Below are positions 12,393 through 30,016 of a DNA stretch of 46,545 nt, piece after piece. The notes below the pieces were generated by a model. The model saw only the letters and a program-made list of their open reading frames with translations, was not told where the DNA came from and did no database searches. The stretch spans positions 1 through 46,545 of the forward strand of contig JABBOG010000030.1 of assembly GCA_019351975.1 (NCBI GenBank), written 5' to 3'. Source of the DNA: Acidobacteriota bacterium (lineage in GTDB: Bacteria; Acidobacteriota; Terriglobia; Terriglobales; Acidobacteriaceae). The position numbers and the translations under genes were made by a program. The stretch's first letter is position 1. Each line of letters starts with the position of its first letter.

Positions 12393-12469
12393 CGGGACGT
12401 GGCTCAGCCTGGTAGAGCGCACCCTTGGGGTGGGTGAGGTCGCTAGTTCGAATCTAGTCGTCCCGACCA
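12393..12469 (+). tRNA. tRNA-Pro (anticodon GGG), CCA encoded
   Basis: The 77-base sequence folds as a cloverleaf. The acceptor stem CGGGACG/CGTCCCG is perfect. The D arm is GCTC/GAGC, the anticodon stem CACCC/GGGTG with loop TTGGGGT (anticodon GGG), and the T arm GCTAG/CTAGT with TTCGAAT. Discriminator A is followed by encoded CCA. The 3' part from the anticodon loop onward coincides with the element's 50-bp attachment repeat, so integration rebuilt an intact gene and the displaced native 3' part now lies at 29967-30011. Confidence 0.97.
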
Positions 12470-12474
12470 TTTTT
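12425..12474 (+). repeat. Left attachment repeat (50 bp)
   Basis: Identical over all 50 positions to 29967-30016. It begins TTGGGGTGGGTGAGG in the tRNA anticodon loop and ends five T after the CCA. The next base on each side differs, which defines the repeat limits. Confidence 0.97.
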
Positions 12475-12505
12475 ATCAACAACTTAGCAGGCGTGAGCAA
12501 GCGAA

Positions 12506-12527
12506 ATGGGTGCAAACGCGGGTGCAG
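12506..12527 (+). repeat. Putative integrase arm site, left
   Basis: A 22-bp stretch starting ATGGGTGCAAACG and ending GGTGCAG, containing two GGTGCA cores. The same stretch with two substitutions occurs at 29852-29873 near the other end. It lies between the attachment repeat and the integrase stop, where arm-type binding sites are expected. Confidence 0.6.
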
Positions 12528-12537
12528 ATAGGTTCAG

Positions 12538-13728
12538 TTATGCCGCGATGCCCGTTTCGACTGCATCTATCGGCGGGATGGTTTGCCCGGCGATAAGTGC
12601 CGCGAGTGCGTTCTGAGCTTCCCTCTTATCCTCCGTAACGGCCTGCGCGTAAAGCTCCATTGTGATGTCTGCCGTCGCGTGACGCATCAACTCTTGCGTG
12701 GTTTTCACGCTTGAGCCGGAGGACATCAGCAGCGATGCGGCGGTGCGGCGGAACGTGTGCCAGCCGATACGCTTGAGGATGCCCAGCCGCTTTGCTGCCG
12801 GTAGGATATGCCGCCGTAGAAGCATGTCCGGCCAGTACGGAAGTCTGCCGAAAGACACCGGGCTTGCAAACACCCAATCGGAGGACTTCGCGTATTCCGT
12901 TTGCTCACGCCAGCATGTGAGAGCTGACGCGAGATCATCGGTCATCGGTAGGGGTTTGCGCGATGTCTCGGTTTTCGGCTTGCCTTCGATTTGGTCAACC
13001 AGGCTCCGAACGATGCGGATAGTCCGCCGCTCAAAGTCCAAGTCTTCCCATCGAAGGCCAAACAGTTCACCGCGCCGCATACCTGTGATGGCTGCCAGCA
13101 TAGTGACTGTCCGGGCAGGTTCGGAGAGTTCGCCAAGAATACCGCGAATCTCCAGGGGCGTAAGGATGTCCGGCGTCTCTACGCGCTTGCTACTGCACCG
13201 CGCAAGAGCAATGGGGTTGTTTGGTGCCCATTGATAACGCATACCGTGACGGAAGAGCGTACCGAACACGCCTTTGACTTTCGTCTTGGTCGCTGGCGCA
13301 TAGGGCATCTTCTCTAACCATCGTTCGACTGCAATAGGCCGTACATCCTGCAAACGATACTTCCCCCATTCAGGCAGGATGATGTCATTCAGGTTGTGCC
13401 GGTAGACCTGTTGCACTCGCGTGGTATGCCTGCCACTCTCCAACTCCGTTTCTGTGTAGTGGGAGATAAGTTCGGCTACCGTGCGACTCACCGGAACAGA
13501 TGAAACAGTCGCGTTGATATCAAGTTTCAGACCTTCGACGGCCTTCTGAGCGGCTGCCTTAGTGCGTATTTGACTCACCGGGCCGACGATTTTCTTTCGG
13601 TATGTTGATGTCCCATCGGCGCGATACTCCCGCCAACGGTAAACCCATACATCTTCCCCGGTGTTCCTCTTCTCAGTTTTCAAAGAACCCGCTTGGAAGC
13701 GGTCACGCTTGAGCGTCAGTTTGTTCAT
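12538..13728 (-). CDS. int: Tyrosine recombinase (phage integrase)
   Basis: 396 residues. It has an N-terminal SAM-like core-binding domain (PVSRTVAELISHYTETEL onward, about residues 75-170) and a catalytic domain (about 185-375). Visible catalytic residues are the first Arg in TGMRRGELFGLRW, the HxxR box in WHTFRRTA, the His in LMRHATADIT and the nucleophile Tyr in MELYAQAV. It would integrate and excise the element at tRNA-Pro. The start is ATG 13728 (AAAGGA ten bases upstream); a 25-residue longer frame overlaps the excisionase-like gene. The stop lies only 11 bases from the putative arm site and 64 bases from the attachment repeat. Confidence 0.95.
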   Translation of the reverse strand: MNKLTLKRDRFQAGSLKTEKRNTGEDVWVYRWREYRADGTSTYRKKIVGPVSQIRTKAAAQKAVEGLKLDINATVSSVPVSRTVAELISHYTETELESGRHTTRVQQVYRHNLNDIILPEWGKYRLQDVRPIAVERWLEKMPYAPATKTKVKGVFGTLFRHGMRYQWAPNNPIALARCSSKRVETPDILTPLEIRGILGELSEPARTVTMLAAITGMRRGELFGLRWEDLDFERRTIRIVRSLVDQIEGKPKTETSRKPLPMTDDLASALTCWREQTEYAKSSDWVFASPVSFGRLPYWPDMLLRRHILPAAKRLGILKRIGWHTFRRTAASLLMSSGSSVKTTQELMRHATADITMELYAQAVTEDKREAQNALAALIAGQTIPPIDAVETGIAA

Positions 13729-13748
13729 GTCGCCTAGTCCTTTCGTGG

Positions 13749-14000
13749 TTAGGCGGCGTGAACGGCATTCGTAGGATACAGGTTCGAATCTGACGAAAGC
13801 CACTTGCTCACTTCGCTGGGTAAGAACAACACCTTTCGGGCGCTCAGGCGGCGGCTAGGGATGCGGCCCTCACGCGCCCATTTCAGGATTGTGACGTGGT
13901 GGAGAGGAACGATCTTCGATAGCTCTTGTGCGGTGAGTGGGGTTTCGATTGCCGGTACAGAAGGCGTACCGGATACGGTTGATCGGCTGGAGGTGTCCAA
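13749..14000 (-). CDS. Excisionase-like MerR/HTH-17 DNA-binding protein
   Basis: 83 residues. After a disordered Ser/Thr/Pro-rich start, the segment LTAQELSKIVPLHHVTILKWAREGRIPSRRL matches the winged helix-turn-helix of excisionase/MerR-type helix_turn_helix_17 proteins. The conserved ending KVLFLPSEVSKWL follows. It lies directly upstream of the integrase gene, the usual place for a recombination directionality factor. The start is TTG 14000 with no strong ribosome site, so a shorter product is possible. Confidence 0.8.
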   Translation of the reverse strand: MDTSSRSTVSGTPSVPAIETPLTAQELSKIVPLHHVTILKWAREGRIPSRRLSARKVLFLPSEVSKWLSSDSNLYPTNAVHAA

Positions 14001-14288
14001 GGTTGGACCAGGTACCCGCGCACTACGGGCGTCTGCGCCATTCGCCAGAAGGCGAACGGAGAATAAGGGCGAGTGAACAGCCCTGTTCTGAAGTCAAACC
14101 CGCATCAGGATGAAGGGTTTCAAGCGAAGCGTTGCAGGGATGACTAAGACAACAATAGCACGGATCCCCAATAAAATCAAGGGTAAACGCATCGAAGCCG
14201 ATATGAATCTGCGAGAGTTTCTGTGAAGTGTTTAGAGATTCGTTTGCGACGCAGAACGGCCCTAGAAGCGTTTTGGGATGAACGGTGC

Positions 14289-14411: not shown

Positions 14412-14423
14412 CGCATCGGAGCG

Positions 14424-14931: not shown

Positions 14932-15198
14932 TTACACGCCCGCGACTGAGAGCACGTCGCCAGCCGTTCCGAGTGCCCATAACGAGTTTGTATTGCCGCC
15001 ATGGATTATGAGTCTGACGCTTTGCCCCTGCTGTAGCAGATAGCCGGTTGTAGCTGTCACCGTGGGCGCGTTGCCAAGCACAATGGCGGCGGCGTTGGTT
15101 GACGGCGCGGCGATTGTGACGGAACGGACGATGTGGTTGTTGGGGAGATTCTGGGCAGTACCGGATACGGCGATGGATTGCTGAAAGCTGACTACCAT
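14932..15198 (-). CDS. Small virion-like protein (possible decoration or spike component)
   Basis: 88 residues, almost lacking charged residues, rich in Ala, Val, Thr, Ser and Asn, with a predicted all-beta pattern (SIAVSGTAQNLPNNHIVRSVTIAAPS ... VRLIIHGGNTNSLWALGTAGDVLSVAGV, quoted in parts). This composition is typical of phage decoration, spike or short tail proteins. It is the last gene of the leftward block before the terminator. AGAGAAG four bases before the ATG gives a fair ribosome site. The assignment as a virion protein is inference from composition and position. Confidence 0.65.
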   Translation of the reverse strand: MVVSFQQSIAVSGTAQNLPNNHIVRSVTIAAPSTNAAAIVLGNAPTVTATTGYLLQQGQSVRLIIHGGNTNSLWALGTAGDVLSVAGV

Positions 15199-15292: not shown

Positions 15293-16006
15293 TTACTGAC
15301 TTCTTCCGGTGATAAGTGTGGCCTTGAGTAGATTCGCCTGCGCAGTGCAGGTATCTGTTGCCGAGCGCAGGATACGCACCGTCATGGGTGTTGGGACTGT
15401 AGAGGTAGCAGGCGGGAAGTCGTTCGCTCCCGGCGTGGCAATCCCTGAAAGGACCGCTGTCACGGTATAGGTATTGGCTGTGGCGCTCACCGTCGTAGAT
15501 ACACTCAAAGGCGATCCAAACGTGGTTGTGCCAGCATCTCCACTCTCCGGACAAGCCGTTTCCACTTCCCAGATCACCGTACCGCTCGTACCAGGCGTAT
15601 AGAAGTCAAACTGTATCGCAGAGCTTGTCCAATACGGCGGGAGCGTCGTGGTGAACTCCGCATACTCGGGCGCCGTCGGCTGTGGTGCAAATGCCATGTA
15701 GCCAAGCGCGGAGGATGCCGAATTGACGCTGCCTACAACCGGCGCATTCGCACTGTACCTCGTCATACCCGCCGCAAACGCCGATCCAGTGTCCGACACA
15801 GCCGCGAGGATCGCTGTGTAGTCGAGAGGGGGCGTGCTGAGTCCACCTCCCGTGCCATAGGCGGAGATGTTACCGTACACATCCGTTTGCCACTGGATGT
15901 TGGAAGAGCCTGATGGAGCATCCGGCGTGGTGTCGCTGAGTACGGCCTTCCCGAATCTGCCGAGTATCAGGTTTATGTCGTTACTGGTTTGTTCTATGAA
16001 TCCCAT
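15293..16006 (-). CDS. Virion-like beta-rich protein (tail/receptor-binding candidate)
   Basis: 237 residues. The N-terminal 30 residues are helical (MGFIEQTSNDINLILGRFGK). The rest is Ser/Thr/Gly/Ala-rich and beta-predicted, with AEFTTTLPPYWTSSAIQFDF and VIWEVETACPE recalling jelly-roll modules of phage tail fibres and appendages. Few charged residues are present. AAAGGAAAG lies before the ATG. It follows the 468-residue gene by 20 bases and is presumably co-transcribed. I do not recognise a specific family; a host-contact or appendage role is plausible but unproven. Confidence 0.65.
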   Translation of the reverse strand: MGFIEQTSNDINLILGRFGKAVLSDTTPDAPSGSSNIQWQTDVYGNISAYGTGGGLSTPPLDYTAILAAVSDTGSAFAAGMTRYSANAPVVGSVNSASSALGYMAFAPQPTAPEYAEFTTTLPPYWTSSAIQFDFYTPGTSGTVIWEVETACPESGDAGTTTFGSPLSVSTTVSATANTYTVTAVLSGIATPGANDFPPATSTVPTPMTVRILRSATDTCTAQANLLKATLITGRSQ

Positions 16007-16026: not shown

Positions 16027-17433
16027 CTACTGTCCGCCTAATAGCTCATGCGCGAAGTGATATCCCGCCGCTCCCGCTCCCGTCAGCCCTGCGGCGGACG
16101 CACCGCGCCTGATCCACACGTTACGCGCTGCAATCTTCTGTGCTGCCAAATGTGCAGCGTCTACGTCGTGTAAGAGCTGGGCAGCTCTATCCTCACCGAT
16201 AGCCTGCACAAGCCGGGACGGAGTGCCGGGGTACTTCGGATTGGGCGTTGCGAGCTGCTGTAGACGGTTCCATAGCGGCTTGGTCCGGACGTTCGTTGCG
16301 GCGGTGTTGTCCGCACCGCTCGCCAGTTGTGACGGGTGAACGTCAGTAGACGCGCGGACTGCTTTAGAGACATCCTGCAATGCCATCGCCCTACGGTGGA
16401 GCGCATCGGCTTGATCTATCGTCGCAGGATCGATGCCTTTTGCCTGTAGCTGTTCGATTGCAGCATCACGTGCGGCCTTGGCATCGGCTAGACGGTCTGC
16501 GAGCTGTTTATCTCGCGCCGGGTCTAGCCCTACTTCATCACGGATCGCACGGGAGACATTATCGATGGCTTCCTCAAACGACTGGAATCGCGTCCCACCC
16601 AAAGCCGTATCCAGCGAAGCATACATATCGTGTGCTTTGCTGCGAAGAGCGTTGGAAAGTGTCTGCGTCACGTCGCGAACCGTGGTGCCATCTGGAATCG
16701 AGACGCCATGTTCGGCGGCTGCATCTTGAATGGCTGAGGTAATCGCGCCCTGTATCTTTGGCTGAAGAGATTTCAGAGAGACGAAGCCCTTCGCACCGTT
16801 GGCCGCACGTTCCGCTTGCGAGAGGATCGCTTCGCCACCTTGACCGGCAAGTTCTCCGGCAACGGGTGAAGCAAACCCACCGGGGATTTGAGTCGCGTCG
16901 AGTGCGCCCCCTACGGTATCTTTCACGCCCTGCCAACGCTGTCCAGGCGTAGCGACTTCAGCACCGCCCTTCGTGGCACGCAAGAGGCCAAGCGGAAGGC
17001 TGCCCATGAAGTCCGCAACGCCGGGTGAGACTCCACTGTCGATGCCGTTCGCTCCGAGTTTATGAAGCAACGCGCCGAGCGTGGTTATAGAGGTTCCGTT
17101 CCGAAGATCGCCTGCAACTGCCGTAGCCCAATTTTTTACATGGTCTGCGGTCGTGCTGTTTGGCACGGCGGACACCCTGCCGGTAGGGAATGTCTCGGCT
17201 GCATAGGATGACTGTGCAGGCGCCTGTTGTGTGGATGTCTGCACCGCAAGGGGTTTGGCTACAGGTGCGGCGTCGAAGGTCATGCCCGAATCCGTATTCT
17301 GATTGGAAGACGGTACCGGCGGCGGGGCTGGGGATGGAACGGACAGAGCTTGCGTCACGGGTGCGGCGTCGAACGTCATTCCCGCGTCTGTCCCTTGGCT
17401 GGGGTTTGAAGGTGTTACAGGTGCAGTAGCCAT
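16027..17433 (-). CDS. Large phage-type internal (DNA ejection?) protein with repeated N-terminal motif
   Basis: 468 residues. The disordered N-terminus carries the same eleven-residue motif twice, D-(A/S)-GMTFDAAPV at residues 16-26 and 48-58. A long helical, coiled-coil-like middle follows (e.g. RDKQLADRLADAKAARDAAIEQL). A hydrophobic Gly/Ala C-terminal helix (SAAGLTGAGAAGYHFAHELLG) could insert into a membrane. This architecture is typical of internal virion or ejection proteins of podovirus-like phages. Its ATG overlaps the previous stop by one base (TGATG), so it is coupled to the 780-residue gene. No lysozyme or transglycosylase motif was seen. Confidence 0.65.
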   Translation of the reverse strand: MATAPVTPSNPSQGTDAGMTFDAAPVTQALSVPSPAPPPVPSSNQNTDSGMTFDAAPVAKPLAVQTSTQQAPAQSSYAAETFPTGRVSAVPNSTTADHVKNWATAVAGDLRNGTSITTLGALLHKLGANGIDSGVSPGVADFMGSLPLGLLRATKGGAEVATPGQRWQGVKDTVGGALDATQIPGGFASPVAGELAGQGGEAILSQAERAANGAKGFVSLKSLQPKIQGAITSAIQDAAAEHGVSIPDGTTVRDVTQTLSNALRSKAHDMYASLDTALGGTRFQSFEEAIDNVSRAIRDEVGLDPARDKQLADRLADAKAARDAAIEQLQAKGIDPATIDQADALHRRAMALQDVSKAVRASTDVHPSQLASGADNTAATNVRTKPLWNRLQQLATPNPKYPGTPSRLVQAIGEDRAAQLLHDVDAAHLAAQKIAARNVWIRRGASAAGLTGAGAAGYHFAHELLGGQ

Positions 17434-19775
17434 CAGAATTTCACCACTTGGCCGCTAGCCGTTCGATACCCAATGATGTTCCCGGTTGCATCTCTTCCGG
17501 GTGTTGCTCCAGCGGGTACGACTCGCGGGGCTTGGACTGGGGCGCTAGGATTCGCGGTGCGGTTGCCGCTCCCGTTGGGCTGAGTTGTCTGCTGTTGCTG
17601 TGGCTGTTGCTGCGACTGGCGTTGATAGTCGGCAACCGTCGTCAACCTATCTTCATTCGCGTATCTGCTGGCGATGTCGTTGATGCTGGACAAAGCACCG
17701 CCGAACTGGTCCGGGTTCATTCCAGGCTGGATAAGATTACCCATCTTATCGAGAATCTGACTGGAGAATCGCGACGTGTGCATCTTCGTTGCGGCGGTTT
17801 GGAGGAAGCTGAGGTCATCCAAGAACTTCTGCGATGCTTTGTCGCCGTAGCCTAATTTCGCGATTGCCGACTTGCTGCGACCCGAAAGAGGACCGGCCAA
17901 GGCGGGATTCTCCTGCAACGCTGCCTGCAAGCCTGAAGATATGGCCAGGACTTGCCGTGCGGTATCAGCGGTCTGCTTCTCCTGAGCTGAGGGCTTGTAC
18001 GTTGAAACCAAGTCCTGCGGAATGACATCACCGCTGGCGTTCACAAGAGCGGACGGCGGGGCGTTGTCCAGGCTAAGGGTTTCGCCGGTGACGGGATTCT
18101 TGCCGAAGCGATACATCGCCTCAACGTCCGTCCCGTCCGCGTGGGCGCGTGCTCCCGCCTCGCTGTATGCTGCCTGAGACTTCTGCTGTTTATCAGCCGC
18201 GAGATACGCCTGTGCGCGTCTGACTTCGCGTGGTGAGCTTGCCGGGTCCGTGGCTATGCTCTGAGCTTGGTCCGCGTTTTTGATCGGCTCTGGCGTCACT
18301 GCGTCGTGATAAGCGGATAGAACCTTCCATCCCTTCGCAGGATCACCGCCGCCGAACGCACCGGCGATGGTCTGCGCGGCCTGTGCATCAGGGTTGGGAA
18401 TCATCTGCTTTGGGTTGCGCGGATCGGGCTTCGTGGGGGCAGCCATCGCCTGTAACGACTCAGCAAAGTCCATCCCGTGAGAGATGTGCGAGTGAGACAC
18501 CCACTTCTGAGCCTTCATGAGGGCCGCACGAAGAACGGGGCCGTTGTCCTTGTCATTCAACTGTGCGTCGAAGTTCGGAATTGACTTCGCAAGCTCTTGA
18601 TCTCCCTTATCGGTTGATTTCGCGAGAGCAGACGAAACCTGCGAAACGTCCTGCTTCATCAGTTTGGTTGCGGTGAGCTGTGCATTCGCGTTGGCGAGCA
18701 TGGTGCCCGGTATCATGTAGTCGCTCGGAATCGTCGCGTTCTTGAATTGGGTCCATCCGGGTATCCCGGCATCTGCAAACGCCTTCGCCTGCTCGTTTGT
18801 CAGCGGAACTTTGGCCGATGGGTTCTGAATGATGCTGAAGGTCTGCTCGTACTTACCATTGATGTTGGTGAATCCGTCAGGAACTGCGATCTCGCGCGTC
18901 GGATCATACTTGCCGCTTTGAATGCCAGCACTCAGCGCATCCTGTGCAATGTCCCCTTCCATCACAGCACCGGCGTCTTTGTATGAGGAGAGAAGGCTTG
19001 CGTTCGTGTCTACGGTATCTTTCAGAGAATCGACGCCGTATCGCTCAGCCTGAGCGGTGTTCAGTACGGTGCGGCTGGATTGCTCAAAGGCGGCTGCCTT
19101 GCGAGTGAGCGACGATACCTGATTTGCGTAGTCCTGTTGCGCCGCTTGGTCTGTCTGCTGCTGAGCTTGTTGGCGCTGCTGTGCGATGTTTACACCTTGC
19201 TGCACACCAACTGCACCGGCCTTGCCGACAGCACCGGGGCCGGTCTCCGACAGTCCCGCGAGTCCACCCGTGAGTGCCGTCAGAGCGATTGCCATGCCTA
19301 TGGATGACTTCGACATCGGCAGAGCGGTGCGCGTCGCTGCGCCCGTTTGAGGATCGATGGTCGTCGCGTAGCGGGGTCCACCGGCTAGGGTTTCAGCGAC
19401 TTGTCGGAGCACGCTGGCGTGTCGAACCGCTGGCGGCGCGGGTGCAGGAGTCGCGTTCGAAACGCCGCCGATGGGCGTCCACTGCTGGGTTTGCGGGTTC
19501 CACCCAAAGTTACCGTCAGAGCTAACGTGGGAATACTGGGAGATGGACGGCTGCTGAGCCTGCGTCGGCTGTTGCTGCTGAGCCTGCGTCGTGGTGGACG
19601 CAGCGGGGGCCGGGGTCGCAGAGCTGGGCTGCTGTTGGTCCGGCGTCGTGGCGGGAGTAGGGGTCGTGGAGGACGCAGGGGTATCAGCGGTAGCAGGGTT
19701 CGTAGTGGACGGCGGCGTATTGTTTACAGCGGAGTTGTCGACGCTCTGTGAGGCGTCTGTCGGATCAATGGGCAT
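17433..19775 (-). CDS. Very large phage-type internal/ejection protein
   Basis: 780 residues, the longest product of the element. The first 130 residues are low-complexity Pro/Thr/Gln/Ala. A hydrophobic stretch (IGMAIALTALTGGLAGL) lies near residue 170, followed by a Gln-rich coiled coil (QQRQQAQQQTDQAAQQ) and about 450 residues of mostly helical sequence. The end is another Gln-rich linker and GRDATGNIIGYRTASGQVVKF-like beta hairpin (read in part). Gln/Ala-rich giants placed before small beta-rich tail proteins are typical of ejection proteins in short-tailed phages. Only a weak AGAAAG precedes the ATG, and a strong hairpin stands just upstream. No enzymatic motif was found. Confidence 0.65.
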   Translation of the reverse strand: MPIDPTDASQSVDNSAVNNTPPSTTNPATADTPASSTTPTPATTPDQQQPSSATPAPAASTTTQAQQQQPTQAQQPSISQYSHVSSDGNFGWNPQTQQWTPIGGVSNATPAPAPPAVRHASVLRQVAETLAGGPRYATTIDPQTGAATRTALPMSKSSIGMAIALTALTGGLAGLSETGPGAVGKAGAVGVQQGVNIAQQRQQAQQQTDQAAQQDYANQVSSLTRKAAAFEQSSRTVLNTAQAERYGVDSLKDTVDTNASLLSSYKDAGAVMEGDIAQDALSAGIQSGKYDPTREIAVPDGFTNINGKYEQTFSIIQNPSAKVPLTNEQAKAFADAGIPGWTQFKNATIPSDYMIPGTMLANANAQLTATKLMKQDVSQVSSALAKSTDKGDQELAKSIPNFDAQLNDKDNGPVLRAALMKAQKWVSHSHISHGMDFAESLQAMAAPTKPDPRNPKQMIPNPDAQAAQTIAGAFGGGDPAKGWKVLSAYHDAVTPEPIKNADQAQSIATDPASSPREVRRAQAYLAADKQQKSQAAYSEAGARAHADGTDVEAMYRFGKNPVTGETLSLDNAPPSALVNASGDVIPQDLVSTYKPSAQEKQTADTARQVLAISSGLQAALQENPALAGPLSGRSKSAIAKLGYGDKASQKFLDDLSFLQTAATKMHTSRFSSQILDKMGNLIQPGMNPDQFGGALSSINDIASRYANEDRLTTVADYQRQSQQQPQQQQTTQPNGSGNRTANPSAPVQAPRVVPAGATPGRDATGNIIGYRTASGQVVKF

Positions 19776-19793
19776 GGGTACTTTCTAAGAGGT

Positions 19794-19869
19794 GGGGCTG
19801 CGTCACATCTCCGCTGCAAGCAGCAGTAGCCCCCGACGCAGCCCCGTTGTCGCCAGACATGACGGGGGC
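19794..19869 (-). promoter_or_regulatory. Leader with two mutually exclusive hairpins before the 780-residue gene
   Basis: An 11-bp perfect inverted repeat (GGGGCTGCGTC at 19794-19804 and GACGCAGCCCC at 19835-19845) ends 18 bases before the start codon. The upstream arm can instead pair with ACGGGGGC at 19862-19869 through GCCCCGT at 19841-19847. The two stems share bases and cannot form together. A smaller GCTGC/GCAGC hairpin sits in the big loop. No T-tract follows. Confidence 0.5.
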
Positions 19870-19926
19870 ATTCTAAAGGCGGCCAAGCCATGTAGAGGAC
19901 AAGACGATGGCCGCCAATTCGATACT

Positions 19927-20097
19927 TTATTTCGGCGCTGCGTCAGCAGAAGGAGCTGAGAGCGCGGCGCGTGCCGCGTCGAAGTCCGATGTCGCGAGAC
20001 TGGCCTTTGCGTTGAGCAGGACCCGTCGCAGGAATGCTGACTGCGACTCTTTCGGCGGTTGCGGAGTCGTTGCCCGCTTCGCTTTGCGTCTCTTCAT
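19927..20097 (-). CDS. Small basic protein (56 aa), coupled to the preceding gene
   Basis: The frame reads MKRRKAKRATTPQPPKESQ, then AFLRRVLLNAKASLATSDFDAAR and an Ala/Pro-rich tail. Its ATG overlaps the stop of the zinc-ribbon/coiled-coil gene as ATGA, the same arrangement used by four other gene pairs in this block, and this is the main evidence that it is real. The very basic N-terminus suggests nucleic acid contact and the second half should be helical. No family recognised. It is the last gene before the leader hairpins of the 780-residue gene. Confidence 0.65.
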   Translation of the reverse strand: MKRRKAKRATTPQPPKESQSAFLRRVLLNAKASLATSDFDAARAALSAPSADAAPK

Positions 20098-21437: not shown

Positions 21438-21853
21438 CTCGTACTCCGGTGCGTGTAACGATTCGACTTGTGGTAGTACCACGGTGCGAGTTTCCGGGCA
21501 GCGTATAGCCGTCCACATCGCGTGATCGTCTCGCGTGCCAACTTAGGTGCTACGGCCTCTCCCGAAGCGAGGCAGAACCACGCGGCCTGTAGGTCAAGCC
21601 TGTTTTCCAACGCCTTTGTCGTAGCAAACTCGATGTCGACGATGTAGTGGATGGCGTCGTAATTTAGCTTGGTCGACTTACCGATGCCATCGGGGTCGAC
21701 GATGCTGGCGACGACCGGGCTCAACGCCTTCAAATTCACGTACTCTGCGACGACCGCATAGAAGACGTTCTGGTAGTGAGCCTGAAGCTCGGCACGTGTC
21801 ACGGCGGTACGCACTTGGTCGATGCGGTCAACCGGCGCGGATAAATTTCTCAA
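21434..21853 (-). CDS. Hypothetical phage protein (139 aa)
   Basis: A helical protein starting with TTG at 21853 (GAGGAG four to five bases upstream, overlapping the stop of the previous gene). It reads MRNLSAPVDRIDQVRTA and later NRLDLQAAWFCLASGEAVAPK and ends with a basic, aromatic tail (APWYYHKSNRYTHRSTR). A GIGKST string in the middle resembles a P-loop but lacks the first Gly/Ala and the surrounding fold. Position between the sigma-like and zinc-ribbon genes suggests a regulatory or DNA-handling role, but nothing firm can be said. Confidence 0.7.
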   Translation of the reverse strand: MRNLSAPVDRIDQVRTAVTRAELQAHYQNVFYAVVAEYVNLKALSPVVASIVDPDGIGKSTKLNYDAIHYIVDIEFATTKALENRLDLQAAWFCLASGEAVAPKLARETITRCGRLYAARKLAPWYYHKSNRYTHRSTR

Positions 21854-22165: not shown

Positions 22166-22834
22166 CTAGGCCGTCTGCAACCCGGCCTCTGCGTATCCAG
22201 GGTCATAAACCCCTTCTTCTTTCTCAGCGGCTCGCATGGCGTTCAACTCATCTTCTGAAAAGTGTTCGCACCGCAGTTCGTTCTGTCGGAGACGCACACT
22301 CTTGAAGCGGTCCCTAGTCTTTTTGTTGTAGTAGAGGTACACATGCTTTTTCACCAGGCTGTAGATGCGCGTCGAGAGCTTCGCCTTGTCCGGCTTATCG
22401 AATGAATGAGCGCGTTGGAAGATCAGCAACGCGACCTCCCAAAATACGTCTTTTGGTTCGATTGCCCAATCCTGTGCAGATGTCCAGAGACTTTGCCGGA
22501 TGGCATCGAAAATCAAGTCTTCATATTCTGTGAGGATTCGGCCTGTAATTTCATAACGGCTGGCTTCTTTGGCGACGAAGCGGTTTGCCCACTTGAGGAA
22601 AGCCGTCTCTTCTACGGGTCCACCATACCGGTGAAGGTTGCCGTACAGTGTAGCGAGGATGGCTTCAGGCGCGGTAAAGAACAATTGGTATTTCGCCGCG
22701 TAGAATGCTGCTTCAGTGAGTGCGAGTGAGTTCGCGATGATGTAGTTGTTGAGGGTTGTTTGCCGGTCTTCAAGATTCGTTGCCGCGTCGGTTCCGGTTG
22801 CCGACTGCGGGGCGTCGATTGTGTTGTGTGCCAT
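22166..22834 (-). CDS. Divergent sigma-70 region-2-like protein lacking region 4
   Basis: 222 residues. Positions of about 75-165 follow the region 2 pattern of sigma factors: ILTEYEDLIFDAIRQSLW (helix 2.1), DVFWEVALLIFQRAHSFD (matching DxxQEvFLrvwraaxxFD), and AKLSTRIYSLVKKHVYLYYNKKTR (matching FSTWLYRIARNxaxDxxRr). The N-terminal 70 residues are helical and unknown. After region 2 only about 45 acidic residues remain, too few for a region 4 helix-turn-helix. AAAGGA lies four bases before the ATG. A phage-encoded transcription switch for the genes downstream is an attractive inference, supported by the promoter just after this gene. Confidence 0.6.
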   Translation of the reverse strand: MAHNTIDAPQSATGTDAATNLEDRQTTLNNYIIANSLALTEAAFYAAKYQLFFTAPEAILATLYGNLHRYGGPVEETAFLKWANRFVAKEASRYEITGRILTEYEDLIFDAIRQSLWTSAQDWAIEPKDVFWEVALLIFQRAHSFDKPDKAKLSTRIYSLVKKHVYLYYNKKTRDRFKSVRLRQNELRCEHFSEDELNAMRAAEKEEGVYDPGYAEAGLQTA

Positions 22835-22891: not shown

Positions 22892-23188
22892 TTACTGCTC
22901 CATCGCTTGCAGCGGGGTGGCGGCGGCGTAGTGCTCCGTCAGGATTTCTCGCAGGTCCGCAATGGTCGTCAATCCGTTCACCGCGCCGGTGCGGACCAGA
23001 CGCGCGGCAAGTTCGCGGGTAGGATCATCACGGAAGCTGTTCAGAGCTGCAAAAAACTCTTCCCAGAATGATTCGGGGTCGTCGAACAACTGGCGGTACA
23101 GTTTCTCCACCACGAGGGCGCGAGCCTCCGTACCGTCGAGTAGTTCTTCGGTGCGTGCCATCGCGAGTAGTGAGTCAGTAACTTCCAT
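22892..23188 (-). CDS. Small acidic helical phage protein (98 aa)
   Basis: It begins MEVTDSLLAMARTEELLDG and contains KLYRQLFDDPESFWEEFFAAL and LREILTEHYAAATPLQ. Strongly acidic, all helix, no cysteines. ATG 23188 with GGGAG twelve bases upstream is favoured; a 40-residue upstream extension is basic, overlaps the previous gene fully and has no site. It overlaps that gene's end by 14 bases. No family recognised. Confidence 0.65.
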   Translation of the reverse strand: MEVTDSLLAMARTEELLDGTEARALVVEKLYRQLFDDPESFWEEFFAALNSFRDDPTRELAARLVRTGAVNGLTTIADLREILTEHYAAATPLQAMEQ

Positions 23189-23426
23189 GATCTTTGCTTT
23201 CTCCCTTCGCCACTGCCGAAACGTATCGGTACGCTTCCTCCGGTCGAAACGCCGGGGTGATCTTGTCCGGAGCAAAGCGTCGAGCAGTTCGCAGGATCGA
23301 CCACTCAACTAGCTCCGGGTCGTAGCTGCTCCACCGTGCGGCATCCTGTACGGACGGTGGTGGGATGTGTGGCATTGCCATCTTCCATAGATCGACGAAG
23401 CCTGAAATCTTCTGTGCAAGCGTCAT
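23175..23426 (-). CDS. Small phage protein (83 aa)
   Basis: It starts MTLAQKISGFVDLWKMAMPH and includes SYDPELVEWSILRTARRFAPDK and a GESKDHGSY tail. ATG 23426 overlaps the stop of the winged-helix gene by 4 bases (ATGA). Predominantly helical with several aromatic residues. It follows a replication-like protein, so a partner or loader role is conceivable, but nothing in the sequence shows this. No recognised family. Confidence 0.65.
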   Translation of the reverse strand: MTLAQKISGFVDLWKMAMPHIPPPSVQDAARWSSYDPELVEWSILRTARRFAPDKITPAFRPEEAYRYVSAVAKGESKDHGSY

Positions 23427-24184
23427 TGGGACATCCTCATCAAGTTGGCGGCATCTGTGGGGCTGAGCTTTAGACCGTGTGGACCATAGACGCCTGCGCC
23501 ACCATAACCGTCTCGCAGCTCGTATCCAGATGGGAGCTGTAAGTCATCCTCAGCACCGGCGCTCACACCTTCACTAACCTTTTCGCTCACCTCAAACTCA
23601 CGTCCCCTCACCGAATGGCTCACGCTGTTCGTAACATTCGCGCTCACACTTTCAATCACCTCAAACTCACCTTCTGTGGGATAGGAAGAGGTTTTATGTA
23701 TCTCCTCTCTATCTCCCTTCTTGTTACTCTTCGGAGTCTCTGGCTGGGTTGCTGGCTGGGTTGCTGGCTGGGTTGCTGGCCGGGTTGCTGGCCGGGTCTC
23801 TGGATTGAGCGTCACGTACCTGAGCTTGGAAACATCCCTCGTTTCAAACACTTCCGAGAGGTCAAGTCTGGATGACTTATGTGGTCCGTCAGTTGGGGCG
23901 AATCCGTCTATCCAGTATCGGTATGCAACAGTCACACGCGGCTTTACGTCGCGGTAGATGTACCGCTTTTGCTCCAGCCCAGCTAATGCATCTTGGGCCG
24001 CTCCCTTGCTCAGTTCTGGAAGGAATACTCGGAGGGTCGGTTGATTGATTGTGTAGCTGCCCGTTTGCCGATCTGCCAACATGAGCAGAATGACGAAGGT
24101 AAGAGCTTCGTTGTTGGTCATCTGACCAGTCATCGTGTGTTCGATCAACCCTCGGTAGAGAGGCACATAGCCGGAGAAGTTCAT
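23423..24184 (-). CDS. Winged-helix replication-initiator-like phage protein
   Basis: 253 residues. The N-terminal 85 residues (GYVPLYRGLIEHTMTGQMTNNE, TFVILLMLADRQTG, LSKGAAQDALAGLEQKRYIYRDV) follow the pattern of the winged-helix domain of phage replication proteins of the O/DnaD-like type. A linker made of repeated PATQ/PATR units (residues about 131-150) is encoded by a 12-bp tandem repeat. The last 100 residues are acidic and Ser/Val-rich with a short helical end (LSPTDAANLMRMSQ). It may bind the element's origin. Its ATG overlaps the 96-residue gene stop by 4 bases and its stop overlaps the next start by 4. Confidence 0.6.
   Translation of the reverse strand: MNFSGYVPLYRGLIEHTMTGQMTNNEALTFVILLMLADRQTGSYTINQPTLRVFLPELSKGAAQDALAGLEQKRYIYRDVKPRVTVAYRYWIDGFAPTDGPHKSSRLDLSEVFETRDVSKLRYVTLNPETRPATRPATQPATQPATQPETPKSNKKGDREEIHKTSSYPTEGEFEVIESVSANVTNSVSHSVRGREFEVSEKVSEGVSAGAEDDLQLPSGYELRDGYGGAGVYGPHGLKLSPTDAANLMRMSQ
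23741..23800. repeat. 12-bp tandem repeat, 5 copies
   Basis: TGGCTGGGTTGC is repeated three times exactly and then twice with substitutions (TGGCCGGG). It lies in phase inside the winged-helix gene and encodes the PATQ/PATR linker, so unit gain or loss keeps the frame. Confidence 0.9.
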
Positions 24185-24471: not shown

Positions 24472-24905
24472 TACTTTCCTACGGATGCCGCCCGTGCGTG
24501 CCGTCGCGAGGTTCTTACGAGGTCTGCACTGTTGGGCTGGCTACTGCGGCGAATCTCACATAGAGACTGCAAGCCGCTCTGTTGATACTGTAACTGCTAT
24601 ATTAGCAGGTTTTTGCCAATCTGTCAAGCGAATCGCCAGTGTTTACGGGGTGATTCGCATACTTGCTACAAAGAGTTTTGTACTTCGTTTGTGTGTTCAT
24701 GAGAAAAAAACAGTGCGAATATCGTTGGGGGTTAGAACCAGAAGCTATCCGCCAGTTAGCAAGTACAAGGTGCATAGACGCTCAAAAAGTGCATGGTCTG
24801 ATCCGAACTTAGCAATAATTTAGCTAGGCAAAGTGAAGTTTGACTCCCCGTAGGGAGTACCTCATTATTCCTCTAACGCTTCACACTTCACACCAGGAGA
24901 ACCCG
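24472..24905. promoter_or_regulatory. 434-bp divergent control region with TTAGCA motifs
   Basis: No convincing gene. It separates the main leftward operon from a rightward gene. TTAGCA occurs at 24602, 24756 and 24809, and its complement TGCTA at 24595 and 24664. TACTTGCTA (24660-24668) is a perfect inverted match to TAGCAAGTA (24757-24765), and TTGTACTT (24679-24686) to AAGTACAA (24761-24768). A hairpin ACTCCC-CGTA-GGGAGT (24843-24858) lies in the leader of the rightward gene. This looks like an operator region. Confidence 0.5.
24594..24627 (-). promoter_or_regulatory. Near-consensus sigma-70 promoter with overlapping palindromic operator
   Basis: On the minus strand TTGACA (24627-24622), a 17-base spacer and TAATAT (24604-24599) form an almost perfect promoter for the leftward operon. 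The -10 lies in the perfect palindrome CTGCTA-TAT-TAGCAG (24594-24608), a good place for a repressor. The first downstream gene starts at 24471. Confidence 0.8.
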
Positions 24906-25256: not shown

Positions 25257-25802
25257 TCAGGATTCCCAAACATCGGCCAAGCACTGCGGAGGGCGTACGA
25301 CCGGTACTCGCGGTTCGTTCCATCCGCCGAACTTCGTCGCCGTCGGCGGTAATACCTTGTCGAGCAGCTTCTCTGCATCGCAGTCATTTTTACGGTGAAA
25401 GCCATGCGGGTCTGAGTGATCATGTAGAACCGCTTGGCAAGCTGCTACGCGCTCTAGGCGATGTGCGGCCTCATCCACCATGACGGCGAGTAGTGTGCGC
25501 AGCTTCAGACGGTCGTGAACTCGTTTACGAGCCTGTGCCAGCGTTGGGCCGTCCGCGCTCCACCCATAGGAAATGTTTCGCTGCTTCCAGGCCATCGGCG
25601 CGATGCTTCCCAGTGGGCCGTCGTCCGTCCATGGCGTCCGTAGCTCCATTACTTCCGCGTGATCGTCGCCGGGTACCGGTTCTGCATCAACGACTAGCTG
25701 TATCAAGTGCTCTGCAACCGCTTTGCGTTCAGCAAGAGACACCTGCTCATCCGCCACGATCTTCCGCAGTTCATCGGCTTGTGTTTCTGTACTACTGTTC
25801 AA
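25257..25802 (-). CDS. Hypothetical protein (181 aa)
   Basis: Starts with TTG at 25802 (GGGAG seven bases upstream), reading MNSSTETQADELRKIV, then ERKAVAEHLIQLVVDAEP, LAQARKRVHDRLKLRTLLA, and a C-terminal part with GFHRKNDCDAEKLLDKVLPP. It overlaps the preceding gene by 11 bases, so the two are translated together. Mixed helical with two Cys and several His, no recognised motif. Probably an accessory phage gene of the second leftward cluster. Confidence 0.65.
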   Translation of the reverse strand: MNSSTETQADELRKIVADEQVSLAERKAVAEHLIQLVVDAEPVPGDDHAEVMELRTPWTDDGPLGSIAPMAWKQRNISYGWSADGPTLAQARKRVHDRLKLRTLLAVMVDEAAHRLERVAACQAVLHDHSDPHGFHRKNDCDAEKLLDKVLPPTATKFGGWNEPRVPVVRPPQCLADVWES

Positions 25803-26124
25803 GTATTTCTCCCTTCGTCCGGTAGCGTTCCAAGATGCGCTCCGTTACCTGCTCCGCTGTCTCACGCGTCTCTACTGGCGTATCAGATACGTTCGGCAGT
25901 CCATGTGTCCCCGGCGCATCTGCGGCCTTCCATGCGTCCCTCAGCTCTCGCCTCAGTTCCAGTTGCTCGCGTTCCTCTCTCAAGCTCAAGATGTCCGCCA
26001 GCCGCAACGCGGCCTGCATCCTCAGGCGTTCATTGCCTGAGGTCTTCATTGTCGTAGTGAGGAATCGAACCAGCTCTCCCCACCGTTTCCGTCCTTTGCG
26101 AGACGGTTGTTTCTGCGTTGTCAT
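25792..26124 (-). CDS. Basic/charged helical protein (110 aa)
   Basis: Begins with a very basic segment (MTTQKQPSRKGRKRWGELV). A long charged helix LRMQAALRLADILSLREEREQ follows, then RRELRDAWKAAD, and it ends with VTERILERYRTKGEILEQ. The basic start plus coiled coil recalls small terminase subunits or phage DNA-binding proteins, but there is no large terminase nearby and no helix-turn-helix I can support. It overlaps the downstream gene start by 11 bases. Confidence 0.6.
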   Translation of the reverse strand: MTTQKQPSRKGRKRWGELVRFLTTTMKTSGNERLRMQAALRLADILSLREEREQLELRRELRDAWKAADAPGTHGLPNVSDTPVETRETAEQVTERILERYRTKGEILEQ

Positions 26125-26649: not shown

Positions 26650-27324
26650 ATGGCGAATGGACGGTTTATAAGCTATCTCAGGGTCAGCACAGCGCAGCAA
26701 GGCGCGAGTGGTTTGGGGCTGGAAGCTCAACGTGCGGCGGTGGCGGCGCACCTGAATGGCGGGCGTTGGGAACTCGTACAAGAGTTTATGGAGACAGAGA
26801 GCGGTAAGCGTGCGGATCGCCCCGCGTTGGCGCAAGCTCTGCGCCTCTGCAAACAGAAGAAAGCCACACTCATCATCGCTAAACTAGATCGTCTCGCGCG
26901 TAACGTTCACTTCATCTCTGGCCTTATGGAGAGTGGAGTTGAGTTCATCGCGTGCGACATGCCAGCGGCAAACAAGTTCGTACTTCACATCATGGCCGCC
27001 GTTGCCGAGCAAGAAGCAGAGGCCATCTCAAAGCGCACGAAGGCAGCACTCCAGGCCGCCAAGGAACGCGGCAAAGTGTTGGGCGGGCGGCGCGTGTCTG
27101 TCGAGCGCTTCGCAGAGATAGGGGCAGAGGCGCGTGAGATGCGCTCTGAGAAAGCCAAAGACTTCGCGGCGGAGCTTCTACCTACCATCGAAGACATCAA
27201 AGCCAAGGGCGCAAAGACACTGAGGGATATAGCGGCGGCCTTGAACGAGACCGGCATACCTACGGCACGCGGCGGTGAATGGTCCGCTGTCCAGGTGCAA
27301 CGCATACTCGCACGCGCCGCGTGA
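26650..27324 (+). CDS. Serine recombinase (resolvase family)
   Basis: 224 residues. The N-terminal catalytic domain (about 1-140) shows ISYLRVSTAQQ with nucleophile Ser13, AKLDRLARNVHFISGLM, the catalytic Arg cluster, and AVAEQEAEAISKRTKAAL at the start of the long E helix. A C-terminal domain (about 145-224) ends with a recombinase-type helix-turn-helix (TLRDIAAALNETGIPTARGGEW). It is resolvase sized, not a large serine integrase. Its role beside the tyrosine integrase may be dimer resolution or inversion of a nearby segment. AAAGGA lies seven bases before the ATG; a hairpin overlaps that site. Confidence 0.93.
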   Translation: MANGRFISYLRVSTAQQGASGLGLEAQRAAVAAHLNGGRWELVQEFMETESGKRADRPALAQALRLCKQKKATLIIAKLDRLARNVHFISGLMESGVEFIACDMPAANKFVLHIMAAVAEQEAEAISKRTKAALQAAKERGKVLGGRRVSVERFAEIGAEAREMRSEKAKDFAAELLPTIEDIKAKGAKTLRDIAAALNETGIPTARGGEWSAVQVQRILARAA

Positions 27325-28033: not shown

Positions 28034-28054
28034 CGTATCAGCCGCCAATCGCCG

Positions 28055-28747
28055 TCAGCTCTTGGGCTTTGTGCAAGACCGATATAAACCTAGCCCCAAG
28101 GGGGTGATATACACCAGTCCGAGCAAAGACATACCACCAAATCCAACGGCTTCGCCGATACAACCTGCTCGGCTCAGATTGCTAAGCGATATCTTCACAT
28201 CGTCAGAGGGCTCTCCGAGCGGGGTCTCCGAAGTTGTTCGTACCTGAGCATGGTCGGGCAGACTTGCAGTTTCGATTATAGGTGGGGACCTAAATGGCAG
28301 GTCTGAGTCTGAGAGTTTGCCGATCTTCGCTAGGATTTGAACATCAGTTGTCGTCAAGTCTTTGAGGATTTCGATATAGGCGGTGCGTAGTTCCATCCGG
28401 CTAGATGCGTCCGCAGCGTTCGCAAGCATCTGTGCCCAGATATCTTGAAGTTCCTCATCCTCCTCAAGTGTCGCGTATGTCAGTAGAGGGAGAGAGAATT
28501 TCACAGGAACCTTGCGTGTAAAGCCATCAATTCCTTGCTCCCGTAAAAACTTCTCAGCCTTACCGGTCACTTTGACGCGATTCTGCCAGCGACGGAACTT
28601 CATATTGTCTTCAGCGATGCCGAAGTACTCTTCTAGCGTACCGTCAAGATACTGCGTGAGCTTGCCCGCAAGGTCGACTAGCTTACCGCTCGTTACCGCG
28701 ACTTCCTTCGCTGCATCCGCCCCAGCTCGGATTGTCTCTTCGTTCAT
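28055..28747 (-). CDS. Abi-alpha (DUF4393-like) abortive-infection protein
   Basis: 230 residues from ATG 28747 (GAGGGA about nine bases upstream). The N-terminal helical part holds GADAAKEVAVTSGKLVDLAGKL. The signature block of the Abi-alpha family follows: FSLPLLTYATLEEDEELQDIWAQMLANAAD, read in parts as PLL-x-ATLEEDEELQDIWA and MLANAAD. Then come IEILKDLTTTDVQILAKI and a C-terminal winged-helix-like end (LSNLSRAGCIGE ... ITPLGLGLYRSCT). Abi-alpha proteins are implicated in phage resistance in Lactococcus (AbiL-type neighbourhoods) and occur widely on mobile elements. As cargo near the right end, it likely protects the lysogen from other phages. Mechanism unknown. Confidence 0.8.
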   Translation of the reverse strand: MNEETIRAGADAAKEVAVTSGKLVDLAGKLTQYLDGTLEEYFGIAEDNMKFRRWQNRVKVTGKAEKFLREQGIDGFTRKVPVKFSLPLLTYATLEEDEELQDIWAQMLANAADASSRMELRTAYIEILKDLTTTDVQILAKIGKLSDSDLPFRSPPIIETASLPDHAQVRTTSETPLGEPSDDVKISLSNLSRAGCIGEAVGFGGMSLLGLVYITPLGLGLYRSCTKPKS

Positions 28748-28928
28748 TGCTCCGTCCCTCACCCTCTACGCGGTAGTCTAGCGCGTTGTGCCAGCGTCGA
28801 GGTAGAGCGTGTTTGCGGCTGCCTTCTATGAATGGCCGAGAGCTGATGCCGTCAGGCGGATATTGGAATTGCTCGGAACAAGGTATAGGCTGGTCAGCAC
28901 AGCACAACATAGCGGTTGATGGAGACCC

Positions 28929-29510
28929 ATGAGCAAGATCGTTGGCGTTCTGTTTCCTTGGAGAAAGACATTCAAACGGTTGGAGCTTGAGGAGCGTTGG
29001 TGGCATCGTCTAGCCAGCGTCCTGTTCTTTGTCGTGCTCGCCGTCACACTGCTGTACTCATGGGTGATAGCCAACGATGCCCGAACCCCTGTTCACCCTG
29101 TCTTTGAAGGCATCACCAACTGGGCTCCCATCCCTATGGGTGCCACAGTCGACCCGGCTGATGTGATGCAGAATCATCAGCGTGCGGTTTCCAATTCAGA
29201 ACAGGAAGATACCTTCGACCAAGTTTCCCCGACAGCGCTGAAGCAGCTACCTGAGCTCACCAAAGACGTACAGATGCCAGACGGGACAACGGCAAGTTAT
29301 TCAGGAACCACATCGGATGCTGTAATCAAGGCAGACTGGCAGCACAGACTCGACATCGCCACACGCAAGGCTCTCATCCTTGGTCTTGTCACCGCCATTC
29401 TGGTGACTGTGGCGCTTAGCTATATGCTCCAGGCGAGCTATAGAGCGTTGTTGTACGTGATATACGGCGCGATGGCCAAGGCTGCCCCTGATAATCAGGC
29501 AGCGGGATGA
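28929..29510 (+). CDS. Two-TM protein divergent from the Abi-alpha gene
   Basis: 193 residues. A cytosolic N-terminus (MSKIVGVLFPWRKTFKRLELEER) leads to TM1 at about 27-48 (ASVLFFVVLAVTLLYSWVIA). A hydrophilic loop of about 95 residues follows (DARTPVHPVFEGITNWAP ... MPDGTTASYSGTTSD), then TM2 at about 146-170 (ALILGLVTAILVTVALSYML). GGAG lies five bases before the ATG. It is divergently arranged with the Abi-alpha gene, separated by 181 bases. A membrane effector or an exclusion protein is possible, but no family was recognised. Confidence 0.7.
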   Translation: MSKIVGVLFPWRKTFKRLELEERWWHRLASVLFFVVLAVTLLYSWVIANDARTPVHPVFEGITNWAPIPMGATVDPADVMQNHQRAVSNSEQEDTFDQVSPTALKQLPELTKDVQMPDGTTASYSGTTSDAVIKADWQHRLDIATRKALILGLVTAILVTVALSYMLQASYRALLYVIYGAMAKAAPDNQAAG

Positions 29511-29587
29511 AAGCGGGGACAGTATAGCTGATTCTCTTGCGCGTATTCAGTACGTCAGTAAAACAGAACATATAGACGGGAGAGAAG

Positions 29588-29755
29588 ATGTCACAAGACA
29601 GCATCAAATTAGAGCGACTGCTGGAGTGGGTTGCAAATGAGATGTACATCGCGCGTAAAGACAAGGAAGCATCCGACGGCGAAGCTCTGAAGGAATGGGA
29701 ATCGAGTCGAAAGCGTATAGAACGGAAGATCGAGGGTTTGCGGGAGGGGTTGTAG
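29588..29755 (+). CDS. Small charged helical protein (55 aa)
   Basis: Reads MSQDSIKLERLLEWVANEM, then YIARKDKEASDGEALKEW and ESSRKRIERKIEGLREGL. GGGAGAG lies three to four bases before ATG 29588. Amphipathic, Lys/Glu-rich, probably one long helical hairpin. It is the last gene before the right attachment site. Its promoter and partner are not visible. A minus-strand frame over the same place was judged a shadow. Confidence 0.6.
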   Translation: MSQDSIKLERLLEWVANEMYIARKDKEASDGEALKEWESSRKRIERKIEGLREGL

Positions 29756-29851
29756 CGTGGCGGCGGGATGGGAAGAGATTGGAGGGGAGTTGCTAGGGAG
29801 GATGGATCACGCTGATTGCCGTTCACGCCGCGTTGTGGTCGCGGTGTCAGC

Positions 29852-29884
29852 ATGGGTGCAAACGTAGGTGCAGTAAGGGTGCAA
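29852..29884 (+). repeat. Putative integrase arm sites, right
   Basis: Positions 29852-29873 repeat the 22-bp stretch at 12506-12527 with two substitutions, in the same orientation. A third GGGTGCAA core follows at 29877-29884. The group ends 83 bases before the attachment repeat. Confidence 0.6.
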
Positions 29885-29966
29885 TAAGCGCTGTGACGGG
29901 TTGTTTCCCGTTCTCTAACGCATAGGTAAATCATGCAAAGTTGCCCAGATTCTCACCGGGGCTGCT

Positions 29967-30016
29967 TTGGGGTGGGTGAGGTCGCTAGTTCGAATCTAGT
30001 CGTCCCGACCATTTTT
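29967..30016 (+). repeat. Right attachment repeat (50 bp)
   Basis: Exact copy of 12425-12474. It contains the displaced native 3' part of tRNA-Pro from the anticodon loop through CCA, and five T. The preceding bases (GCTGCT) do not restore a tRNA 5' half, so this is not a second tRNA gene. Confidence 0.97.

Follow-up and report, generated by a model that had tools for sequence, protein, structure and literature searches.

What kind of mobile element carries genes that resemble those for the interior of a phage head and no recognisable gene for the head itself? The question is raised by a 46,545-nt stretch of DNA from Acidobacteriota bacterium (Acidobacteriaceae; GCA_019351975.1, contig JABBOG010000030.1, positions 1-46,545), herein called the window, to which all element coordinates refer. 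An element at positions 12425-30019 lies at a tRNA-Pro gene of this window. A preliminary description, made from the sequence alone, had noted virion-type genes without capsid or packaging genes, and had offered two readings: a satellite, or a prophage that lost its central module. Comparison with related elements and phages indicates that the element is probably a member of a family of podovirus satellites of Acidobacteriaceae, which would supply the head interior and borrow the shell, the portal, the motor and the tail.

The element ends are formed by a 53-bp direct repeat of 98% identity, the attachment (att) repeat, whose left copy overlaps the 3' part of the tRNA-Pro gene (12393-12469, found by ARAGORN). 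The GC skew is -0.22 to -0.47 in the flanks and near zero within the element, and the G+C content is 56.6% within the element versus 60.8% across the whole window. The repeat and these shifts uphold the view of an integrated tRNA-Pro element. In five of six congeneric tRNA-Pro loci, a single att copy adjoins the same left neighbour gene (716 amino acids, aa); the sixth locus has an att copy and none of the window's flank genes. The right flank was colinear in 0/6 of these loci, and an empty integration site is therefore not formally demonstrated. The integrase (int) and excisionase (xis) genes are located at the left end, most genes are oriented leftward, several with short gaps or overlaps, and a serine recombinase and an Abi-alpha defence gene are found towards the right end. 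Pfam matches confirmed the integrase, the serine recombinase and the defence gene named earlier (Table 1). The proposed arm-like repeats were not recovered; only short two-copy families were found.

The evidence for the origin of the virion-type genes comes from Tunturi_3 (PP885686), a podovirus of Tunturiibacter with a 97.6-kb genome and a 76.7-nm head (PMC11924767, in an excerpt), and from four prophages, G260a, G260b, G301 and G306. All four prophages carry pilot, gp24-like, gp25-like and scaffold-position genes together with terminase, portal, capsid and tail genes. In Tunturi_3, the block gp22 (acetyltransferase)-gp23-gp24-gp25 is located after the tail genes and before the endolysin, and G301 has the same arrangement with a few genes between. 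The block resembles T7 genes 13-16 in place and size pattern.

The window element carries homologues of this block. The g780 protein matches Tunturi_3 gp24 with E 5e-17 when used alone and 9e-42 with the g780-family profile A1. The g468 protein occupies the place of the third gene; its family profile (window and G034, a relative described below) matches the third gene of G260a with E 7e-28, and its aligned identity is 42% in G034 and 28% in a second relative, G018. The preliminary description had called these two giant proteins ejection-type. Their homology to a short-tailed phage block stands, and the ejection role, assigned by place, is inferred from the position and architecture of the block. 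The third protein, g364, had been listed with 353 residues and is read here as a 364-aa open reading frame (ORF). Over its middle and C-terminal parts, g364 is a homologue of the protein that the phages encode between portal and capsid (hhalign 96.3%, E 1.8e-9; hidden Markov model, HMM, of phage proteins only, E 1.5e-11), and its tblastn match falls inside the G301 gene between portal and capsid (E 1.5e-5). In window and G034, the match reaches near the C-terminus, and a zinc-ribbon-like N-terminus, absent from the phage proteins, is fused on (read by eye from alignments). Judged by its place alone, the phage protein is likely a scaffold; no annotation confirms this name. No Pfam or PHROG family was matched by g780, g468 or g364.

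The Tunturi_3 member of the scaffold-position family is gp4 (L021 1190-2221), a hypothetical protein encoded between portal and capsid; the family, also present in L015 and the four prophages, is an unnamed candidate scaffold family. In Bacillus phage Pascal, which is distantly related in its capsid, the gene preceding the capsid gene is likewise annotated as hypothetical and thus does not help to name gp4 a scaffold. In G018 (L011 6681-7698), two separate ORFs encode the zinc-ribbon and scaffold-like portions of g364, which may reflect two genes or a frameshift.

Two smaller genes, g88 and g237, match Tunturi_3 gp30 and the N-termini of gp16 and gp18, the latter annotated as tail fiber, and suggest a helper close to Tunturi_3. 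A scan with A3 gave eight IMG/VR loci, of which L013/L014 and L017/L020 look like duplicates; the genome-contig search with A3 gave only one locus, apparently the G301 contig. Nothing useful came from phage tblastn searches with g780, g468 and g364 singly and with the G306 third gene, from viral scans with g780 and g237, from a genome-contig search with A1, or from a plasmid search with the G034 homologue.

The same layout was found again in three further capsid-less elements. Homologues of g780 are present in 2/149 other family genomes searched, G034 and G018, both inside elements bounded by tRNA-derived repeats. A pilot-like profile with rows from G034, G018 and phages matched in 5/300 family genomes and 7/347 order genomes, including the third relative, G166. 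The G034 element (18.8 kb) is bounded by a 55-bp repeat of 100% identity at tRNA-Ala, the G018 element (18.9 kb) by a 40-bp repeat of 97.5% identity at tRNA-Ser, and the G166 element (17.9 kb) by a 45-bp repeat of 100% identity at tRNA-Ala. Counted with one att copy, the lengths are 17,542 bp for the window, 18,793 for G034, 18,938 for G018 and 17,938 for G166, all within 8%. The four elements belong to four genera, three of them other than that of the window, and, like satellites in general, each has its own integrase between the att repeats. Profile A1 in 398 family genomes gave no further element, only G260 and G205. The weak g780 match on contig G205:C354 was dropped from the counts; the fetched 20 kb gave no tblastn match at E<=0.01 to the query set and looked by eye like another phage.

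The gene order scaffold-position (g364-like), pilot-like, g780-like and g468-like is kept in the relatives, with a 1243-aa protein in the g468 place in G166. In G034 and G018, a pilot-like protein of 221-251 aa is encoded between the g364-like and g780-like genes, and G034 adds an acetyltransferase-like gene; the G018 protein is 47% identical to Tunturi_3 gp23 (E 2e-29). The window element has a 318-bp gap at this place. The best match of the pilot profile on its six-frame ORFs had E 0.93 and was outside the gap. The preliminary description had placed a possible single deletion between 19927 and 19775. This is rejected because the relatives carry the pilot-like gene, and in G034 the acetyltransferase-like gene, at the 19775-20094 place, and no capsid or packaging genes. 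Because three more capsid-less elements in other genera keep the order, the layout is a repeated one and not the product of one deletion. The satellite reading gains support from these elements, the complete relatives carrying terminase, portal, capsid and tail.

The absence of recognisable terminase, portal, capsid and tail genes, as claimed before, was confirmed. The 90 ORFs of at least 60 aa in the window element match 15 PHROGs at E<=0.01, consisting of integrases, invertases, an excisionase, helix-turn-helix (HTH) proteins, a weak sigma factor and unknowns. No capsid, packaging or tail family is among them, and nothing in the element is recognisable as a gene for terminase, portal, capsid, tail or lysis. 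In single-protein tblastn searches (E<=1e-3), which are the fair controls, Tunturi_3 terminase, portal, capsid, gp10, gp12, gp13 and gp19 matched in 4/4 prophages and 0/4 elements. The gp23 protein matched in 4/4 prophages and 3/4 elements, and the gp26 endolysin in 0/4 elements. Single gp4 matched in 1/4 prophages and gp24 in 0/4, and both families need profiles. More sensitive profiles, with sequences taken from Tunturi_3, the four prophages and six IMG/VR loci, were run on every stop-to-stop ORF in the four elements that reached 40 aa; their prophage matches arise by construction. The best E values in the elements were 6.1 for terminase, 0.83 for portal, 1.8 for capsid, 0.5 for gp10, 0.098 for gp12 and 0.29 for gp13. 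The best gp19 match (E 0.0099) is an ORF antisense to the G034 g181 homologue, was judged a shadow ORF, and is counted as 0/4. The same kind of profile detected gp4 in 4/4 elements (9.6e-9 to 4.4e-5), gp24 in 4/4 (1.3e-38 to 2e-20), the pilot in 3/4 and acetyltransferase-like gp22 in 1/4 (G034, 2.7e-11). The phage-only scaffold-position HMM found exactly one ORF per element (window 1.5e-11, G018 4.4e-11, G034 1.5e-10, G166 1.7e-4), the next match having E 2.

Could the element be an autonomous virus whose capsid and packaging enzyme go unrecognised among its unnamed genes? Most of its small genes indeed have no family match. The Pfam scan of 20 window genes gave no P-loop ATPase, the genes that the elements share beyond the virion block, recombinases apart, encode short proteins (about 83-222 aa), and in the related complete phages the terminase, portal and capsid are of ordinary kinds. 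An autonomous virus is thus highly improbable.

The distribution of the genes across genomes gives the same separation. Capsid genes occur in 4/347 order genomes, none of them an element host, and the pilot in 7/347; the four capsid genomes are among the seven and the other three are exactly those of the capsid-less elements, in a count for which some profile rows were taken from the genomes found. The rows of profile A7 include G018 and G034 and those of A14 include G260, G301 and G306, genomes that were bound to match in the family and order searches. The G211 locus, on contig ends and with a split capsid, was counted as phage-type and excluded as a control.

The elements also share genes that are not virion genes. 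These are found in the same order, int, xis, g181/g110, g83, g222, g139 and serine recombinase, and every one of them is present in two or three elements. The int and xis genes are shared by window, G034 and G166, with a distant integrase in G018, and the serine recombinase by window, G034 and G166. The g181/g110 pair and g139 are shared by window and G034, and g83 and g222 by window, G034 and G018. The conserved non-phage backbone is clear for window, G034 and G018; G166 has only int, xis and the serine recombinase, plus the late block.

A cycle can be proposed for these elements from homology and position, with a putative reliance on a helper, putative packaging, and putative roles for the ejection-type and scaffold-position proteins. 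The element would excise and reintegrate at the tRNA gene with its own integrase and excisionase, whose genes are present, and would probably replicate via the module at 23-24.5 kb. The helper, a phage akin to Tunturi_3 or to the prophages G260/G301, would make virions in the same cell. The element would contribute the proteins inside the head, that is, the scaffold-position homologue and the ejection-type pilot-like gp23, gp24-like and gp25-like proteins. In the window copy, the missing pilot-like protein would come from the helper, and g88 and g237 would be fibre or virion-type accessories. Capsid, portal, terminase, tail and lysis proteins, for which the element has no recognisable genes, would be supplied by the helper. 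Element DNA would travel in the resulting particles and be delivered by injection proteins that the element itself encodes. Abi-alpha in the window and the short Argonaute pair in G166 would, judging from their families, act against other phages. As a matter of speculation, a reduced head could accommodate the uniform length of 17.5-18.9 kb, or a head as large as that of Tunturi_3 could take about five copies, and the resolvase-type recombinase in 3/4 elements would suit concatemers. The block genes match different phage subgroups in different elements, as if tuned to different helpers. A more specific strategy, in which an own scaffold (perhaps with a smaller head) and an own ejection machine fill and fire helper-built shells, is a tentative possibility.

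The same genes could instead form an interference island, in which scaffold-like and ejection-type proteins poison the assembly or injection of infecting phages and the element is not packaged. A dominant-negative effect is conceivable for proteins homologous to phage assembly proteins, and defence families are present in window and G166, as is an HSDR_N/AAA protein in the G034 element. An integrase, an excisionase, tRNA-specific att sites and replication-type genes are the needs of a mobile element, and three or four virion genes plus the fibre-like g237 exceed what interference requires; this explanation is improbable.

Several results weigh against the satellite reading. No helper, induction, packaging or transfer was seen. 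A capsid of the candidate helper type was not found in the genome of the window or in the other element hosts, and no small terminase or packaging-redirection gene was recognised in PHROGs among the 90 ORFs. The IMG/VR pattern scans (A5 and A1), weak tests with two short peptide patterns each, gave no element-like contig. The ejection assignment comes from place and size; the families have no PHROG or Pfam name and no credible PDB match by sequence, and hhalign gave no profile similarity to T7 gp14, gp9 or gp15. AlphaFold models, made from alignments of 6 and 7 rows, failed, with a mean pLDDT (predicted local distance difference test) of 38 for a pilot and 40 for g780. The window copy or the G018 copy may be impaired, because the window has no pilot-like gene and the G018 g364-like gene is split over two ORFs. 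Finally, the elements do not form one clade in the pilot and gp24 trees, and at least two changes are forced in each. G034 and G018 (and window in the gp24 tree) are near Tunturi_3 and L013, and G166 is elsewhere on weakly supported, long branches. The trees have 15 and 14 rows, and their branches are long and some forks open; the absence of one clade is firmer than the placements, of which that of G166 is least firm.

The third gene likewise matches different phage subgroups in different elements. Every element has a match: window and G034 to G260a, G018 to G301 (1.8e-22) and L013 (1.1e-17), and G166 to G306 (31%, E 3e-71). The direct comparison of window/G034 with G018 was not significant (E 0.37), and these third genes are linked through the phage proteins.

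Such a split is what repeated derivation from phages would give, and it bears on the view that the elements are deletion derivatives of podovirus prophages, which lost terminase-portal and capsid-to-tail and kept the remaining virion genes as relics or for other uses. What the elements have retained is part of the phage late module, in phage order, and the lost pilot-like gene of the window and the split scaffold-position gene of G018 would fit with this view, as would the third-gene matches. The four elements in four genera, however, keep homologues of the same three genes and miss the same seven. The non-phage genes common to window, G034 and G018 indicate that these are not fresh deletions, the element lengths are within 8%, and the block proteins are only 27-49% identical among window, G034 and G018 yet open. 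Random decay is rejected in view of the ORFs that stay open in several diverged copies, with the split G018 gene as the exception. The reading as deletion derivatives is unlikely. An earlier derivation of the family from phages by deletion stays within what the data allow, and a deletion origin is also compatible with satellite life at present. The simplest account of these sequences would be a satellite backbone whose virion block was exchanged with, or repeatedly taken from, phages.

The remaining genes of the window element are listed in Table 1. The sigma-like switch proposed for g222 has weak support from a single PHROG match; its homologue in G018 is direct, and that in G034 is linked via G018. 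For g253, which had been called replication-like, no family match of its own was found. The replication-module place holds unrelated genes in the relatives, an AAA_25 protein in G034 (L008 3764-4822, 2.3e-22) and a phage O-like initiator in G166 (L030 4124-5194, 9e-9), and genes without a family name in the window (23423-24184) and G018. A strong regulated early promoter had also been claimed. The number of promoter-like sites is at chance (3 found versus a mean of 2.5 in shuffles); the best site, upstream of the leftward operon, matches 10/12 positions, and an inverted repeat, CTGCTATATTAGCAG at 24594-24608, lies on its -10 box as a candidate operator.

Table 1 Features of the tRNA-Pro element in the 46,545-nt window.
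Feature	Positions	Strand	Evidence
attL	12425..12477		53-bp repeat, inside the 3' part of tRNA-Pro and extending slightly beyond it; 98% identical to attR
tyrosine integrase, 421 aa	12538..13803	-	PF00589 2.7e-22; 45-46% identical to G034 and G166 integrases
excisionase-like HTH protein (xis)	13749..14000	-	PF12728 (HTH_17) 2.7e-8; 61-71% identical in G034, G166
g88, small virion-type protein	14932..15198	-	Tunturi_3 gp30 homologue, 54% over ~80 aa, E 3e-25; gp30 annotated 'virion structural protein'
g237, fibre-like	15293..16006	-	N-terminus versus Tunturi_3 gp16, gp18 N-termini: 52-53% over ~60 aa, E 3e-10, 4e-11
g468, third gene of ejection-type block	16027..17433	-	place of Tunturi_3 gp25 and T7 gene 16; G260a counterpart 30.5% over 233 aa, E 3.5e-19
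g780, second gene of ejection-type block	17433..19775	-	Tunturi_3 gp24 homologue; place of T7 gene 15
gap (318 bp) where three relatives have a pilot-like (gp23-like) gene	19776..20093	-	no remnant detected
g364, homologue of scaffold-position protein	20094..21188	-	homology over middle and C-terminal parts; phage counterpart encoded between portal and capsid
g139, backbone gene	21434..21853	-	common with G034 element, E 1e-9, same place
g222, backbone gene, weakly sigma-like	22166..22834	-	PHROG sigma factor E 0.0042; window-G018 E 8e-6, G034-G018 E 1e-13
g83, backbone gene	23175..23426	-	common with G018 and G034, E 1e-16 and 5e-5
g253, replication-module place	23423..24184	-	no family match of its own; counterparts by place in G034, G166
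promoter-like site upstream of leftward operon	24599..24627	-	TTGACA-17-TAATAT, 10/12, TG before -10
g181 and g110, conserved gene pair	25257..26124	-	g181 43% identical in G034; g110 E 8e-7
serine recombinase, resolvase type	26650..27324	+	PF00239 4.4e-29; 28-30% identity in G034, G166 elements
Abi-alpha defence cargo	28055..28762	-	PF14337 3.1e-17; PADLOC PDC-S47 1.6e-8
attR	29967..30019		98% identical to attL

Other cargo was seen in the relatives. The G166 element carries a short prokaryotic Argonaute (L030 209-3066; PADLOC pAgo_I 6e-166) with an Aga partner of restriction endonuclease type (4e-127). The cargo end of the G034 element (L007 16785-19562) encodes a 925-aa protein with HSDR_N, AAA/STAND-like and S1 matches, possibly a defence protein, for which PADLOC gave no match. 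In the same genome, a 14.4-kb stretch (L007 2058-16478) with sugar-metabolism-type genes (by eye) is flanked by the same tRNA-Ala att repeat; it is in tandem with the satellite-like element and has integrase pieces at its right end.

Among known systems, Tunturi_3 shares homologues of gp23, gp24, gp4, gp30 and gp16/gp18 with one or more of the elements, and differs as a complete phage with terminase, portal, capsid and tail. T7 has scaffold gene 9 between portal and capsid and four internal proteins after the tail genes, with similar sizes; it differs in the missing profile similarity for the three proteins compared, gp14, gp9 and gp15. P4-like satellites carry sid/psu and a P4-type replication protein. 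No P4-type name appeared in the general family scans of the window genes, which included no search aimed at P4 genes.

Staphylococcus aureus pathogenicity islands (SaPIs) are found in staphylococci and use siphovirus helpers. The nearest mechanistic parallel of g364 is CpmB of SaPI1, described in an excerpt of PMC6893505 as an internal scaffold whose C-terminal capsid-binding motif is common with the helper scaffold; similarly, what g364 has in common with the phage scaffold-position protein is the middle and the C-terminal part. As for the SaPI-type trait of capsid size, a scaffold-position homologue is present in 4/4 elements at the level of sequence homology. The difference is that no ejection-type genes are named for SaPIs in that excerpt, and that the scaffold role of phage gp4 is assigned by place.

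Known satellites mostly alter the shell or the packaging of the helper, and capsid-forming phage-inducible chromosomal islands (cfPICIs) build their own shells. If the satellite reading is true, the head interior would be a module that can be separated from the rest and replaced by parasites. Whether ejection proteins have to fit the genome that is packaged, the size of the head or the envelope of the host could then be tested; Tunturi_3 is a cultured phage of the candidate helper type. In the open-access literature, with most subscription papers and preprints outside it, neither a satellite that brings scaffold-position and ejection-type proteins nor any phage satellite in Acidobacteriota was found, and this may be the first satellite group proposed in that phylum. 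An excerpt of PMC11389934 defines phage satellites as elements that promote their own packaging into particles for which phages provide all or some of the components. The kinds named there are P4-like satellites, phage-inducible chromosomal islands (PICIs), cfPICIs, PLE, PICMI, VEIMEs, tycheposons and a soil-bacteria proposal. The cfPICI capsids form three clades within phages (same excerpt), and the likeness to the present elements is that of a satellite with part of a phage virion module, and the pilot and gp24 here likewise do not form one clade. The difference is that cfPICIs make capsids, whereas these elements carry head-interior-type genes without a recognisable capsid, portal or terminase.

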